Assembly: GCA_016929695.1 (NCBI GenBank) | Contig: JAFGII010000011.1 | Span: forward strand, 1 to 32,599 | Source: Ignavibacteria bacterium | GTDB taxonomy: Bacteria > Bacteroidota > Ignavibacteria > Tepidaquicellales > Tepidaquicellaceae | Reading direction: 5' to 3' | Length of the DNA stretch: 32,599 nucleotides | Shown here: positions 15,463 to 32,574 of the stretch, piece after piece | Layout: each line of letters begins with the position of its first letter | How positions within the stretch are numbered: position 1 is the first letter of the stretch | Made by a program: the position numbers and the translations under genes | The notes under the pieces: generated by a model | The model's input: the letters and a program-made list of their open reading frames with translations, nothing else | Told to the model about the DNA's origin: nothing | Database searches by the model: none

Positions 15463-15606
15463 AAGTGTAAAAAGTTCAAATTAGTTCGTAAAGTTTGTAA
15501 AGTTAATAAAGTTTGTAAAATTTGTAAAATTTGTAAAGTTTGTAAAGTTCGTAAAGTTCGTAAAGTTTGTAAAGTTTTTACAGTTCGTTAAGTTTATTAA
15601 GTTCAT
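15463..15606. repeat. 9-bp tandem array (GTAAAGTTY type)
   Basis: About 14 to 15 units of nine bases with consensus GTAAAGTTT/C, perfect in the centre (15516-15575) and decayed at both ends. It lies directly upstream of the globin promoter region and merges at 15607-15613 into a 7-bp array. No ORF crosses it. Confidence 0.9.
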
Positions 15607-15613
15607 AATGTAA

Positions 15614-15669
15614 CTAATCACTAACCACTAATCACTAACCACTAACCACCAACCACTAACCACTAACCT
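15614..15669. repeat. 7-bp tandem array A (CTAAYMA), eight units
   Basis: Eight units in unbroken phase: CTAATCA, CTAACCA and one CCAACCA variant. The last unit (15663-15669) overlaps the coding end of the esterase gene, whose stop codon TAG is the reverse complement of the unit's CTA. The array's top strand has no G. Confidence 0.92.
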
Positions 15670-19027: not shown

Positions 19028-19072
19028 CAAAGTTCCTAAAGTTCCTAAAGTTCCTAAAGTTCCTAAAGTTCA
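19028..19072. repeat. 9-bp tandem array (TAAAGTTCC), five units
   Basis: Five nearly identical nine-base units between the convergent acylase and rsmA genes, followed after one base by 7-bp array B. The order is the same as at 15463-15669. Confidence 0.92.
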
Positions 19073-19166
19073 TCAATCACTAACCACTAATCACTAATCA
19101 CTAACCACTAATCACTAATCACTAACCACTAATCACTAACCACTAACAACTAATAACTAACCACTA
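19073..19166. repeat. 7-bp tandem array B (CTAAYMA)
   Basis: Thirteen units in exact phase from 19073 (first one a TCAATCA variant). The final CTA at 19164-19166 is the reverse complement of the rsmA stop codon TAG. The top strand of the array is G-free. Confidence 0.92.
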
Positions 19167-28121: not shown

Positions 28122-28149
28122 TGATTAGTGGTTAGTGATTAGTTGTTAG
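28122..28149. repeat. 7-bp tandem array C, reverse orientation, four units
   Basis: TGATTAG, TGGTTAG, TGATTAG and TTGTTAG, the reverse complements of the CTAAYMA unit. It starts directly after the TGA of the winged-helix gene. Confidence 0.85.
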
Positions 28150-28156
28150 TGAATAT

Positions 28157-28222: not shown

Positions 28223-28262
28223 CCTGATTGGCTGATTGATTGAATGGATGATTGGCTGAATG
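28223..28262. repeat. 8-bp tandem array ending in a start codon
   Basis: Five octamers: CCTGATTG, GCTGATTG, ATTGAATG, GATGATTG, GCTGAATG. They are the reverse complement type of the array inside the acylase gene. The last three bases are the ATG of the DUF6922-type gene. Confidence 0.8.
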
Positions 28263-28520
28263 AAAAAAATTATGTTACCTGCAGAATTAAAAAAATATTT
28301 TTGGGATTGCAGTTTTGAGGAACTGACAATCGAGAAATATCCTAAATTCATCATAGAAAGAATATTAAACTATGGTAAAGAAAGTGAAATCAAATGGCTG
28401 AGAAAGAATGTTGACGGGGATTATTTCAAAAACATTGCATTAACAAGCAGAAGATTGGACAGGAAAACGGCGAACTACTGGAAAAAATATTTCCGAATAA
28501 ACGAAAAAAATAATAAATGA
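28260..28520 (+). CDS. DUF6922-type small protein, probable antitoxin of the AbiEii pair
   Basis: An 86-residue helical protein. The opening LPAELKKYFWDCSFEELTIEKYPKFIIERILNYG is typical of a family that I recall as DUF6922, which often precedes an AbiEii nucleotidyltransferase gene. It then continues with EIKWLRKN and SRRLDRKTANYWKKYF. Its stop overlaps the start of the AbiEii-like gene by four bases (ATGA), so the two are translationally coupled. This supports a toxin-antitoxin pair with this gene as the antitoxin, although it lacks the winged helix of the classical AbiEi. The ATG is part of an 8-bp tandem array and has no Shine-Dalgarno site. Confidence 0.7.
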   Translation: MKKIMLPAELKKYFWDCSFEELTIEKYPKFIIERILNYGKESEIKWLRKNVDGDYFKNIALTSRRLDRKTANYWKKYFRINEKNNK

Positions 28521-29131
28521 AACTGCACCCGGAAATATTGGAAGAAAATCAACGTGAATTATTCGATAAAATTAAGACCTCAAGTTTGATTGATGACTTT
28601 TATCTTGCCGGGGGAACGGCATTGGCATTGCAAATAGGTCACCGGCTCTCTGAGGATTTTGATTTTTTTACGAATAGAGATTTTAATGTTAATGATTTGT
28701 CATTTCAACTTGCCGAAAATTTAAATTTCAAAAAGGTTTCTGAAGATATAAATACACTGATTGGAGTTATAGATAATATACGGGTTTCATTTATAGGATT
28801 TAAATATAAAACAATAGGGGAATTCCTGTTAAATGATAATCTAAGAATAGCATCTGTTCAGGATATTGCCTGTATGAAGTTATCCGCAATAACACAAAGA
28901 AGTACTAAAAAAGATTTTGTTGACATATATTATTTACTACACACATATTCATTAAAAAAATTATTTGAATATTATAATAATAAATTTGATTTAAGCGAAT
29001 ATGAATCGGTGTTAAAAAAATCTTTAGTATATTTCCGGGATGCGGAAGACGACCCTATGCCAAAAATGATTAAAGATATCAGTTGGACTGAAGTAAAAAG
29101 ATACATAGAAGAAAAAGTGTTTGGTAGTTAG
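28517..29131 (+). CDS. AbiEii-type nucleotidyltransferase toxin
   Basis: A 204-residue protein of the AbiEii/AbiGii nucleotidyltransferase family, toxins of type IV systems that modify tRNA or other targets. Key features are LAGGTALALQIGHRLSEDFDFF (the GGT at 32-34 and the acidic DxD-like pair D47/D49), then KLSAITQRSTKKDFVDIYYLL (121-141), the second conserved block with K121 and D133. Both blocks are intact, so it should be active. The partner gene overlaps its start by four bases. The stop TAG (29129-29131) belongs to the first unit of 7-bp array D. The role in this locus may be defence or simple addiction. Confidence 0.82.
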   Translation: MKLHPEILEENQRELFDKIKTSSLIDDFYLAGGTALALQIGHRLSEDFDFFTNRDFNVNDLSFQLAENLNFKKVSEDINTLIGVIDNIRVSFIGFKYKTIGEFLLNDNLRIASVQDIACMKLSAITQRSTKKDFVDIYYLLHTYSLKKLFEYYNNKFDLSEYESVLKKSLVYFRDAEDDPMPKMIKDISWTEVKRYIEEKVFGS

Positions 29132-29152
29132 TGATTAGTGATTAGTGGTTAG
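29125..29152. repeat. 7-bp tandem array D, reverse orientation, four units
   Basis: TAGTTAG, TGATTAG, TGATTAG and TGGTTAG. The first unit ends in the AbiEii stop codon; the array ends five bases before the next ATG, joined by an A-run. Confidence 0.85.
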
Positions 29153-29157
29153 AAAAA

Positions 29158-29541
29158 ATGGAAAAACTTAATAAGAAAATAGAAAAATTTGAAGATTTAC
29201 TTGTATGGGGAAGAGCACATAAATTAGTATTGGAATTATATGATATGATTAAGAAATTTCCAAATGAAGAAAAATATAGAATAACAGAGCAGTTATTAAG
29301 AGCAGCAATATCAATACCCACGAATATTGCCGAGGGATTTGGAAGGTATTCAAGAAAAGAATTTATACAGTTTTTGATTATATCAAGAGGTTCAGCAGCG
29401 GAAGTAAAATATTTATTAGTATTATCGAAAGATTTGAAATATATCAATATGGAATTATATAATAAGTTTAATTCCGAATTAGATGAAATTGGAAAAATGA
29501 TAAACGGTTTAATAAACTCAATACGTTCAAATAATCACTAA
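29158..29541 (+). CDS. S23-type four-helix bundle protein
   Basis: A 127-residue helical protein of the four-helix bundle (S23/IVS) family: FEDLLVWGRAHKLVLELYDMI, then FPNEEKYRITEQLLRAAISIPTNIAEGFGRYSRKEF, then a helix with RGSAAEVKYLL and a final helix. The family was first seen in intervening sequences of 23S rRNA genes, but here it is a free-standing gene; the molecular role is unknown. It is preceded by array D and its last residues (N-H-stop) are encoded by the opening units of array E, so the gene is enclosed by arrays on both sides. Confidence 0.88.
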   Translation: MEKLNKKIEKFEDLLVWGRAHKLVLELYDMIKKFPNEEKYRITEQLLRAAISIPTNIAEGFGRYSRKEFIQFLIISRGSAAEVKYLLVLSKDLKYINMELYNKFNSELDEIGKMINGLINSIRSNNH

Positions 29542-29726
29542 CCACTAATCACTAACCACTAACCACTAATCACTAATCACTAACCACTAACCACTAACCA
29601 CTAATCACTAATCACTAACCACTAATAACTAATCACTAATCACTAACCACTAACCACTAACCACTAACCACTAACCACTAATCACTAATCACTAACAACT
29701 AATCACTAACAACTAATAACTAAAAT
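29531..29726. repeat. 7-bp tandem array E (CTAAYMA), 28 units in perfect phase
   Basis: From 29531 to 29726 the sequence divides into exactly 28 heptamers without one phase break (CTAATCA, CTAACCA, CTAACAA, CTAATAA; edge units are variants). The stop codon of the S23-type gene is in unit 2, and the ATG of the SLBB gene follows the last unit directly. The top strand has no G. Confidence 0.95.
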
Positions 29727-30363: not shown

Positions 30364-30412
30364 CAAATCACTAACAACTAATAACTGACCACCAACAACC
30401 AACAACCAACCA
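30364..30412. repeat. 7-bp tandem array F, seven degenerate units
   Basis: CAAATCA, CTAACAA, CTAATAA, CTGACCA, CCAACAA, CCAACAA, CCAACCA in exact phase. It runs straight into the ATCAGT-type repeats before the GxxExxY gene. Confidence 0.8.
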
Positions 30413-30487
30413 GTGTCATCAGTGTACAAAAAGTTAAAAAGAAAAATCTGTGAAAATCAGTTTAATCAGTGTCATCAGTGTGCAAAA
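30411..30487. repeat. ATCAGT-type repeats with left copy of the 46-bp direct repeat
   Basis: A partial copy (CAGTGTCATCAGTGTACAAA, from 30411) is followed by a fuller one at 30442-30487, which matches 30975-31020 at 45 of 46 positions. Internally it is made of nine- or ten-base units ending ATCAGT. Confidence 0.9.
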
Positions 30488-30513
30488 TGTTAAAAATACG
30501 TTTATAATTTATT

Positions 30514-30912
30514 ATGGAAAAATACATACATCAGGAGTTGACGGAAAAAGTAATCAAATACTATTACAAAATATACAATACCTTGGGCTTTGGCTTTCTT
30601 GAAAAAGTATATGAGAAATCATTAATCCTCGAACTGACAAAAAATGGTATTTTCTTTGAAAAACAAAAACCAATTAAAATATACTACGACAGCGAAATCG
30701 TAGGAGATTATATTGCAGATATAATAGTAGAAAACAAAATAATATTAGAAATAAAAGCAACAGAAATACTTAAAGAAGAACACGAACTTCAACTGATAAA
30801 CTATCTTAAAGCGACACAAATAGAATTAGGTTTACTGCTTAACTTTGGGAAAGTTCCCGAAATACGGCGTAAAATCTTCACTAACGATAGAAAAGAACTC
30901 TTTACGAAATAG
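30514..30912 (+). CDS. GxxExxY protein (PD-(D/E)xK nuclease-like)
   Basis: A 132-residue protein of the GxxExxY family, named for G27-x-x-E30-x-x-Y33 (GFLEKVY). The core continues with DYIADIIVENKIILEIKA, where D69, E79 and K81 fit the catalytic D...ExK of the PD-(D/E)xK nuclease fold, followed by Q93-LINY-97, a QxxxY-like motif. A nuclease function is inferred from these motifs; no activity is known to me for the family. The gene is bracketed by 46-bp direct repeats (30442-30487 and 30975-31020), so it may be a small mobile or repeat-associated unit. No Shine-Dalgarno site is seen. Confidence 0.85.
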   Translation: MEKYIHQELTEKVIKYYYKIYNTLGFGFLEKVYEKSLILELTKNGIFFEKQKPIKIYYDSEIVGDYIADIIVENKIILEIKATEILKEEHELQLINYLKATQIELGLLLNFGKVPEIRRKIFTNDRKELFTK

Positions 30913-30974
30913 TACAAAGGAAAATCCGTGAAAAAAATTATGATTTATTTTTTCAGTGTACGAAATTTTTTTAT

Positions 30975-31020
30975 AAAAATCAGTGAAAATCAGTTTAATC
31001 AGTGTCATCAGTGTGCAAAA
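30975..31020. repeat. Right copy of the 46-bp direct repeat
   Basis: Matches 30442-30487 except for one base near the left end. It ends 20 bases before the epimerase ATG, so the epimerase ribosome binding site lies between the repeat and the gene. Confidence 0.92.
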
Positions 31021-31040: not shown

Positions 31041-31961
31041 ATGAAATACTTAGTTACCGGAGGAGCAGGGTTCATCGGCTCCAACATAGTCGAAGAACTC
31101 TTCAAGCGGGGTGAAAAAGTCCGCGTCCTCGACAACTTCTCCACAGGCAAACGTGAAAACCTCAAAGAATTCGAAAACGATATCGAACTAATCGAGGGCG
31201 ACGTCCGCAGTTACCACATCGTTGAACAGGCAGTAAAAGGAATTGACGTCATCCTTCATCAGGCGGCACTCCCGTCCGTTCCCCGCTCAATCAAAGACCC
31301 CATTACCACAAACGAAGTCAACATAGGCGGAACGCTCAATATGCTCGACGCAGCGGTAAAAGAGGGAATAAAAAGATTCGTCTTTGCATCCTCTTCATCA
31401 GTTTACGGCGACAATCCCGAACTGCCCAAGCACGAAAAAATGACACCCAATCCCTTATCTCCCTATGCCGTTTCAAAACTGGCGGGAGAAAATTATTGCA
31501 GAGTATTTTCAAGTTTATATGAAATCGAAACAGTCTGTTTAAGATACTTCAACGTCTTCGGACCGAGGCAGGACCCGAACTCGCAATACTCCGCCGTCAT
31601 TCCCAAGTTTATAAAACTAATAACCAATAACCAACAACCGACCATTTACGGCGACGGTACACAATCACGTGATTTTACTTATGTTGCCAATGTAGTAGAA
31701 GCAAACATACTTGCTGCGACAATAAAAATAGGAACTCCGGTAATAATGAACTGCGCCTGCCACGGACAAATCACATTAAACGAACTGACTGAAGATATTA
31801 ACACGTTACTGAACAAAGACATAAAACCGATATACACGAAGCCCAAACCCGGCGACATCAAACACTCTTTCGCCGACATCACATTAATAAAGGAGAAACT
31901 CAACTGGTCTCCAAAATACACTTTTAATGAAGGTCTTTCAAAACTAATCACTAACCACTAA
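31041..31961 (+). CDS. NAD-dependent sugar epimerase (UDP-hexose 4-epimerase type)
   Basis: A 306-residue extended short-chain dehydrogenase. TGGAGFIG (6-13) binds NAD, the SSSS-VYGD strand (117-124) holds the catalytic serine, and Y142-x-x-x-K146 in YAVSK is the catalytic pair. RYFNVFGPRQDPNSQYSAVIPKFI and YGDGTQSRDFTYV match UDP-glucose/UDP-N-acetylglucosamine 4-epimerases. It should make a nucleotide sugar for a surface polysaccharide, consistent with the SLBB gene nearby. GAGAGG precedes the ATG. Two segments are encoded by 7-bp repeat DNA: residues 193-201 (LITNNQQPT) and the C terminus LITNH plus the stop. The exact substrate is uncertain. Confidence 0.92.
   Translation: MKYLVTGGAGFIGSNIVEELFKRGEKVRVLDNFSTGKRENLKEFENDIELIEGDVRSYHIVEQAVKGIDVILHQAALPSVPRSIKDPITTNEVNIGGTLNMLDAAVKEGIKRFVFASSSSVYGDNPELPKHEKMTPNPLSPYAVSKLAGENYCRVFSSLYEIETVCLRYFNVFGPRQDPNSQYSAVIPKFIKLITNNQQPTIYGDGTQSRDFTYVANVVEANILAATIKIGTPVIMNCACHGQITLNELTEDINTLLNKDIKPIYTKPKPGDIKHSFADITLIKEKLNWSPKYTFNEGLSKLITNH
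31617..31644. repeat. 7-bp array inside the epimerase coding sequence
   Basis: Four heptamers in phase, CTAATAA, CCAATAA, CCAACAA, CCGACCA, read in the frame in which their TAA triplets are split, giving LITNNQQPT. The same unit variants occur in arrays F and H. Confidence 0.8.
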
Positions 31962-32020
31962 CAACTAACCACTAACCACTAATCACTAACCACTAACAAC
32001 TAACAACTGACAACCGATAA
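31944..32020. repeat. 7-bp tandem array G, eleven units
   Basis: Eleven units in exact phase. The first three encode the end of the epimerase, including its TAA stop (31959-31961); the last base of the final CCGATAA unit is the A of the next ATG. Confidence 0.92.
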
Positions 32021-32574
32021 TGGAAGAAGTAATTAAAACTGAAAAAATTGAAAATTTAATAATTGAAATACATGGAGTAAAAGCAATAATTGATAGTGAC
32101 GTAGCATCACTATATGGAGTAGAAACGAAAAGAATCAATGAAGCAGTAAAAAACAATCCTGATAAATTTCCTGAAAATTATATTGTTGAACTTACGAAAG
32201 AAGAATGGGATAAAATGAAGTCGAAATTTTCGACTTCAATAAAAGGCGGGAAAATAAAATCCCCAAAATTATTTACTGAAAAAGGTCTATATATGCTCGC
32301 AACAATTTTGTAGAGCAAAATTGCGACGAAGACAACAATTTCTATAATTGAAACATTTTCAAAAATCAGAGAATTATCATCAAATATTAATAGATTACCT
32401 CATGTACAAAATGATACAGAAAAGAACAAATTATTGAAAAAAAGCGGAGAAATTATATCAGACATACTTGAAGATAACATGAAAATATCGGATACTGAAA
32501 CTTCAATAGAGCTTAACTTTGCAGTATTAAAATTTAAGCACACAATTAAAAGAAAAAAAACCAACAACCAATAA
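32020..32574 (+). pseudogene. ORF6N-domain protein with an in-frame TAG
   Basis: An ORF6N-domain gene (phage/KilA-N-like DNA-binding family). Residues 1-97 contain IHGVKAIIDSDVASLYGVETKRINEAV, FPENYIVELTKEEW and LFTEKGLYMLATIL; then a TAG at 32311-32313 interrupts the frame. Beyond it the same frame continues for 86 codons that match the rest of the family (TISIIETFSKIREL, KSGEIISDIL, DTETSIELNFAVLKFKHTIKR). Family members I recall have lysine here (LATILKS), so one AAG to TAG change explains the break. It is a recent nonsense pseudogene, or the TAG is read through. The final stop TAA (32572-32574) lies in array H. Confidence 0.8.

Follow-up and report, generated by a model that had tools for sequence, protein, structure and literature searches.

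Genes for RAYTs (REP-associated tyrosine transposases) are flanked by inverted REPs (repetitive extragenic palindromic sequences), and REP doublets, known as REPINs, are found elsewhere in the genome (PMC2817692, PMC3116915). Intervening sequences (IVSs) of 23S rRNA encode S23 four-helix-bundle proteins (PMC4990558), and intergenic heptamer repeats have been described in Xanthomonas and Nostoc (PMC4692102) and in Beggiatoaceae (PMC4679880). Here we describe a comparable arrangement around genes of the GxxExxY family. The starting point was a 32,599-nt stretch of Ignavibacteria bacterium DNA (contig JAFGII010000011.1, positions 1 to 32,599; hereafter the window), in which a GxxExxY gene lies between two copies of a 46-bp repeat. 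The best explanation, to which we assign a probability of roughly 0.6, is a REPIN/RAYT-like system that has formed on an unrelated nuclease, such that the GxxExxY protein would recognise its own repeats and the repeats would be its non-autonomous elements.

GxxExxY loci were sampled from the GTDB family of the window, from its phylum, from named genomes and from nine genomes of other lineages, and together they number more than 200, with at least nine phyla represented. To compare the two sides of a gene, the upstream flank was locally aligned to the downstream flank in reverse complement, and a score of at least 28 was counted as a pair of inverted arms. Such arms were present at 89 of 137 GxxExxY loci as opposed to 5% of 219 control open reading frames (ORFs) from the same loci (Mann-Whitney p = 1.6e-32), and at 109 of 168 loci once a second batch had been added, i.e., at about 65% in Bacteroidota. 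Outside Bacteroidota, 26 of 29 loci from Cyanobacteriota, Chloroflexota, Acidobacteriota, Alphaproteobacteria, Planctomycetota, Verrucomicrobiota, and Elusimicrobiota had inverted arms, compared with 4.8% of non-cognate flank pairs taken from different genomes. A plasmid locus from Fusobacteria adds one more phylum with a GxxExxY unit. Both the association of gene and repeats and its inverted geometry are well supported by these counts; inversion is the general rule and direct orientation the exception.

The arms directly adjoin the ORF, often beginning no more than 10 nt from the stop codon. They consist of three to four degenerate heptamers arranged as CRCNRAG-N(1-3)-CRCNRAG-N(1-6)-CRCNRAG(-N(2-3)-CRCNRAG), with spacers mostly of these lengths, and their outer end reads TTNA(A/C)C. 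The heptamers are polar, with 2.31 sense versus 0.62 antisense occurrences per 150 nt in the upstream flank and the mirror image downstream.

Repeat words fall into three classes, CRCNRAG (G), CRCNRAT (T), and ATCCTG (CCTG), and the word co-diverges with the protein clade, across phyla as well as inside single genomes. On a tree of 186 proteins the word class changed 8 times, compared with 31 changes after shuffling (minimum 27 in 1000 shuffles). Clade I goes with CRCNRAG and clade II, which includes the window protein, with CRCNRAT or ATCCTG: among the loci of the window's family, clade II had 22 T or CCTG and 0 G, and clade I had 19 G and 2 T (p = 2.6e-10). Nine genomes of this family contain both clades, each with the expected word. 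Whether or not a proline stands between the motif's two glycines is by itself enough to predict the word (122/6 versus 4/27). Since clade II had been picked as the best T-rich clade and branch support was low, the rule was tested on 29 newly fetched, held-out relatives of the window protein; T words outnumbered G words in 28 of them, and the remaining one was a tie. The coupling also held when only between-phylum pairs were considered (Mantel r = 0.17, p = 0.001), and an ATCCTG-type repeat of about 44 nt is roughly 80-89% alike between Anabaena and loci of the same subclade in the window's family.

The GxxExxY locus of the window consists of the following features.

30408-30440, plus strand: partial further copy of the repeat (CCAGTGTCATCAGTGTAC), in the same orientation as the upstream 46-bp copy.
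30442-30487, plus strand: upstream 46-bp copy with four T-type units (ATCTGTG AAA ATCAGTT TA ATCAGTG TC ATCAGTG TGC).
30514-30912, plus strand: GxxExxY gene, 132 aa, PD-(D/E)XK nuclease-like, of the non-GPG clade (LGFGFLEKVY).
30920-30965, plus strand: decayed array (ATCCGTG ... TTCAGTGTACG), 67% to the 46-bp copy, located after the stop codon and ahead of the 3' arm.
30975-31020, plus strand: downstream 46-bp copy, which is the canonical 3' arm.

A preliminary description of this DNA had recognised the two 46-bp copies as a direct repeat, and they are indeed identical at 45 of 46 bases with a single gene between them. It was also right that the repeats are built of units; these are not bare ATCAGT but ATCNGTG-type units spaced about 9 nt apart, written ATCNGTGNN. 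The unit pair ATCNGTGNNATCNGTG, with at most one mismatch, matched five times in the window versus 0.04 matches expected from shuffles. Across the window's own genome, which has two GxxExxY genes, ATCAGTGNNATCAGTG with at most one mismatch gave 28 matches and the reversed control pattern 0. Most of these matches are solo copies distant from any GxxExxY gene, and many share a common tail (CGTAATGCTGG...) past the 46 bp. The solo copies therefore resemble independent elements rather than the proposed scars of an excision that leaves one repeat behind.

The upstream copy has the orientation of a 3' arm, opposite to that of a normal 5' arm. The reverse complement of the downstream copy, GCACACTGATGACACTGATTAAACTGATTTTCACTGATT, is similar to arms found in relatives, L377 and L403 among them. 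Of 31 relatives of the window protein, 19 have inverted T-type arms and 8 direct ones. The nearest plasmid relative (Fusobacteria, 60% identity) likewise has direct repeats, which can be aligned with those of the window. At L330, an example of a tandem cluster, the gene is flanked by the 3' arm of the neighbouring unit and by its own 3' arm. As the simplest origin of the arrangement in the window, the 5' arm has probably been replaced by a 3'-arm-oriented copy that is a remnant of a neighbouring unit, which accounts for the direct repeat noticed there. The expectation that other GxxExxY genes would have the repeats in their flanks was borne out for most of them, usually with inverted arrays. 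A homing-like element that recognises the repeat, also suggested previously, finds no support: inverted arms are the usual layout even in the closest relatives of the window protein. The insertions observed are intergenic; a homing endonuclease gene would be expected inside a conserved allele that the nuclease cuts when empty.

The repeats also occur where there is no gene to bracket. Several genomes contain gene-less hairpins, in which the arms surround a short loop, or tandem clusters of such hairpins (L321-L328). In the phylum sample of 395 genomes, 185 have a GxxExxY gene and 69 have arrays; the array pattern was found in 65 of the 185 genomes with the gene versus 4 of the 210 without it (odds ratio 28, p = 6e-20). 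In the genus of the window, the gene-bearing genome has 28 array matches and two gene-free genomes have 1 and 0. ORF-less hairpins and the link between arrays and gene are thereby well supported. Repeats that are common without the gene had been named in advance as an observation that would undermine the mobile-unit or homing-like reading. They are common without it within genomes; genomes that lack the gene rarely have arrays. One locus, L328, has tandem clusters of hairpins with about ten matches to the array pattern although no GxxExxY gene was detected in its genome (G135), and is either a relic that has lost its gene or a case in which the gene is absent from the assembly only. A repeat of about 44 bp, TTGTCTGAATCAGGAT..CAGGATT.., is present in many copies and both orientations around the GxxExxY genes at L049, L308, and L367, in genomes of the window's family and in Anabaena, with roughly 80-89% likeness across phyla.

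Gene and arms behave as an inserted unit that mostly lies in sense orientation inside operons. In genomes of the window's family in which both ends could be placed, the nuoE-nuoF spacer measures -1 to 44 bp with the exception of four. In these four, all species of genus g3, it is filled by a sense GxxExxY gene with its arms, and in a fifth g3 species the site is empty. Further insertions were found between fabD and fabG in Sphingomonas and beside radA in Bacteroides. The earlier suggestion of a minimal mobile unit is thus upheld in so far as gene and repeats are coupled and act as an inserted unit, as the filled and empty nuoE-nuoF sites and the coupling of word and clade show, but not in its direct-repeat form. 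Sequences at the filled and the empty nuoE-nuoF sites have diverged too far to show a junction or a target duplication. Pairs of similar genes in different contexts yielded no clean element junction either; their homology begins shortly upstream of the ORF and stops close to the end of the ORF, or else continues through shared neighbours. At orthologous sites, arms are about equally like their cognates and their orthologues in the small samples at hand, which bears on concerted evolution of the two arms. Flipping of the unit between its inverted arms was suggested by loci oriented as in their contigs and disappeared when the strands were corrected.

The preference for operons and for the sense strand (70 sense versus 11 antisense genes between co-oriented neighbours) could point to an intervening element that acts at the RNA level. 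In this model the arms pair in the transcript, RNase III cuts the stem, and the ORF is removed or processed, so that a selfish gene becomes harmless in operons such as those with nuoE-nuoF, fabD-fabG, and radA. The S23 family offers a precedent, as RNase III cuts out those rRNA IVSs that contain S23 ORFs (PMC4990558), and S23 loci of the window's GTDB family have the same inverted-heptamer bracket in 21 of 28 cases, with locus-specific words. However, mismatches between the arms comprise 109 G-U-compatible, 118 A-C-type, and 290 transversion positions; this lack of a G-U bias argues for recognition at the DNA level and against selection for RNA pairing. Nor would a need for pairing alone lead one to expect that the word follows the protein clade, and ORF-less hairpins and solo arrays exist. 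We therefore regard an RNA-level element as unlikely.

Slightly less favoured still is a passive association, in which the genes merely landed between arrays that are repeats of the host or hot-spots of recombination, or were copied along with them. Consistent with this idea, solo arrays outnumber genes in many genomes (e.g., 11 versus 1 in G208 and 18 versus 2 in G397), and the comparison of dispersed words with gene-arm words per genome gave a positive but not significant match (p = 0.16). However, two protein clades in one genome have different words, distant phyla with the same clade have the same word, and arrays are rare in gene-free genomes, all of which argues against chance proximity.

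The window protein belongs to the GxxExxY family (TIGR04256, 131.7 bits, cut-off 35) and matches PF13366 PDDEXK_3 (134.4 bits, cut-off 22). In an alignment of 43 sequences, the nuclease-like residues D69, E79, and K81 pointed out in the preliminary description are invariant, and Q93 and Y97 of its QxxxY motif are nearly so. The AlphaFold model (predicted local distance difference test score 90.7) has a compact PD-(D/E)XK core, and its best match in the PDB is 4ic1, SSO0001 (E 1.2e-4, Z 10.3, 98 aligned residues, root-mean-square deviation 3.8), which we take to be a Cas4 protein. With the conserved D...E-x-K residues and a modelled restriction-endonuclease-like alpha/beta core, the protein has the features of the PD-(D/E)XK superfamily, and the predicted fold is that of a Cas4/RecB-type core; a shared fold shows no function. 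The recombination-promoting Rpn/YhgA nucleases are in the same superfamily but form a different family. The window protein gave no Rpn/YhgA-type match in Pfam or NCBIfam, only TIGR04256 and PF13366, and we know of no bracketing repeats for Rpn/YhgA nucleases. Given these two matches and the restriction-endonuclease-like fold of the model, it is not a tyrosine (IS200/IS605-related) transposase. The GxxExxY protein had no match to PF05635 (S23).

A toxin-antitoxin-like or defence nuclease, with arms that served as autoregulatory operators and were scattered later, would suit a small PD-(D/E)XK protein with arms directly adjoining its ORF and with AbiEii-type and, judged by eye, restriction-type neighbours, but is improbable, as there is no conserved partner gene, the arms stand inverted on both sides and also form ORF-less hairpins and tandem clusters, and no GxxExxY match was found among phages or in IMG/VR. 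Carriage by phages or plasmids is likewise not favoured; of 72,556 plasmids, 8 had a match. At L045 (G027), a GxxExxY gene lies directly upstream of what by eye is a type I restriction specificity (HsdS) gene. In the window, positions 28260-29131 contain a DUF6922 gene and, behind it, a gene for an AbiEii-type nucleotidyltransferase, likely a toxin-antitoxin-like pair.

The REPIN/RAYT-like reading gives these elements the following roles. The autonomous form would be a 5' arm, the GxxExxY ORF, and an inverted 3' arm, together about 500 bp and mostly in sense orientation between operon genes, and the non-autonomous form, dispersed over the genome, would be either a short loop enclosed by such arms or arrays by themselves. 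The nuclease most likely binds to the heptamers and makes nicks or cuts at the arms, whereupon the arms, and rarely the gene, may be copied or moved via recombination or replication; its action at the arms might also keep both of them alike. Sequence-specific binding, cleavage, mobility, and a spread driven by the nuclease are thus what we infer from the distribution of genes and repeats.

The likeness to REPIN/RAYT systems lies in a resident nuclease gene between two inverted short repeats, in gene-less repeats that form hairpin doublets and tandem clusters, in a repeat type that follows the protein clade, and in a gene that does not spread in bursts. The two systems also differ. The RAYT protein is an IS200/IS605-related tyrosine transposase, whereas GxxExxY has a predicted PD-(D/E)XK core of Cas4/RecB type; REPs are palindromes headed by GTAG or CGTC, whereas GxxExxY arms are made of degenerate CRCNRAG/T heptamers; and RAYTs are found mainly in Gammaproteobacteria, whereas the GxxExxY system occurs in many phyla. 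The system therefore acts like REPIN-RAYT yet is not a member of it. Insertion sequences and miniature inverted-repeat transposable elements likewise have terminal inverted repeats on either side of an ORF, as well as derivatives that lack the ORF, but GxxExxY units show neither bursts of several near-identical copies per genome nor a demonstrated target-site duplication, and their arms vary from locus to locus yet match each other. The Xanthomonas heptamers resemble the arms as intergenic arrays of short units, some in inverted pairs, that are enriched between aligned ORFs (PMC4692102); as far as the accessible parts of the reports go, these and the Nostoc and Beggiatoaceae heptamers (PMC4692102, PMC4679880) have other words and are described without a linked gene family. 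In the open-licence literature, as far as it was accessible, we found no published link between GxxExxY genes and repeats and nothing relevant on the repeat words; an earlier description elsewhere is possible.

Several observations weigh against the REPIN/RAYT-like reading, and the non-significant match of dispersed and gene-arm words belongs among them. The window's own locus lacks the inverted geometry, and about one quarter to one third of GxxExxY genes have no detectable arms; genes without flanking repeats, foreseen as a refutation at the outset, are thus real but a minority. The split between clades I and II is weakly supported on the tree (29). Inside four well-sampled GTDB families, the association between gene and arrays is weaker (Mantel-Haenszel odds ratio 3.7, p = 0.04). 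Neither transposition events nor target-site duplications nor products of excision were found. Of 61 GxxExxY genes, only 4 have their closest relative within their own genome, so the gene itself is not spreading in bursts.

S23 genes outside rRNA look like a parallel system on an unrelated protein. As in S23 IVSs, a gene of about 120 codons lies between complementary arms, and heptameric repeats adjoin the ORF; the GxxExxY protein is, however, unrelated to S23, its neighbours are protein-coding and not rRNA genes, and its arms lack a G-U bias. The window contains an S23 gene of its own (29158-29541, TIGR02436/PF05635) within inverted heptamer arrays (AGTGATT.. / ..AATCACT; 29116-29716), and this gene also looks like part of the parallel system. 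Intergenic heptamer arrays of the ACTAACC/CACTAAC type that resemble the S23 arms are located at 15613-15668, 19075-19166, 28122-28152, and 31943-32008. Tandem arrays of 9-nt units adjoin heptamer arrays at 15483-15603 and 19029-19071 (AGTTTGTAA; AAAGTTCCT), and a short ORF of 97 aa with an ORF6N domain (32020-32313) adjoins a heptamer array as well.

The GxxExxY family, which a large share of genomes have (185 of 395 in the phylum sample), is annotated by its motif only, and the coupling to repeats gives it a testable function. On balance, GxxExxY proteins would be the nucleases of pan-bacterial miniature repeat systems with clade-specific heptamer codes (CRCNRAG, CRCNRAT, ATCCTG). These systems would be REPIN-like but have arisen on a nuclease of Cas4/RecB type, and many anonymous intergenic repeats may stem from them. 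This would explain a class of ownerless intergenic repeats that recurs across phyla, and the coupling of clade and word supplies natural matched and mismatched protein-DNA pairs. Our data suggest that the GxxExxY genes, a common family, drive or maintain a miniature-repeat family of their own. If this is true, REPIN-like systems of resident nuclease and repeats would have arisen by a second route, independent of the first, and the S23 genes suggest a third.
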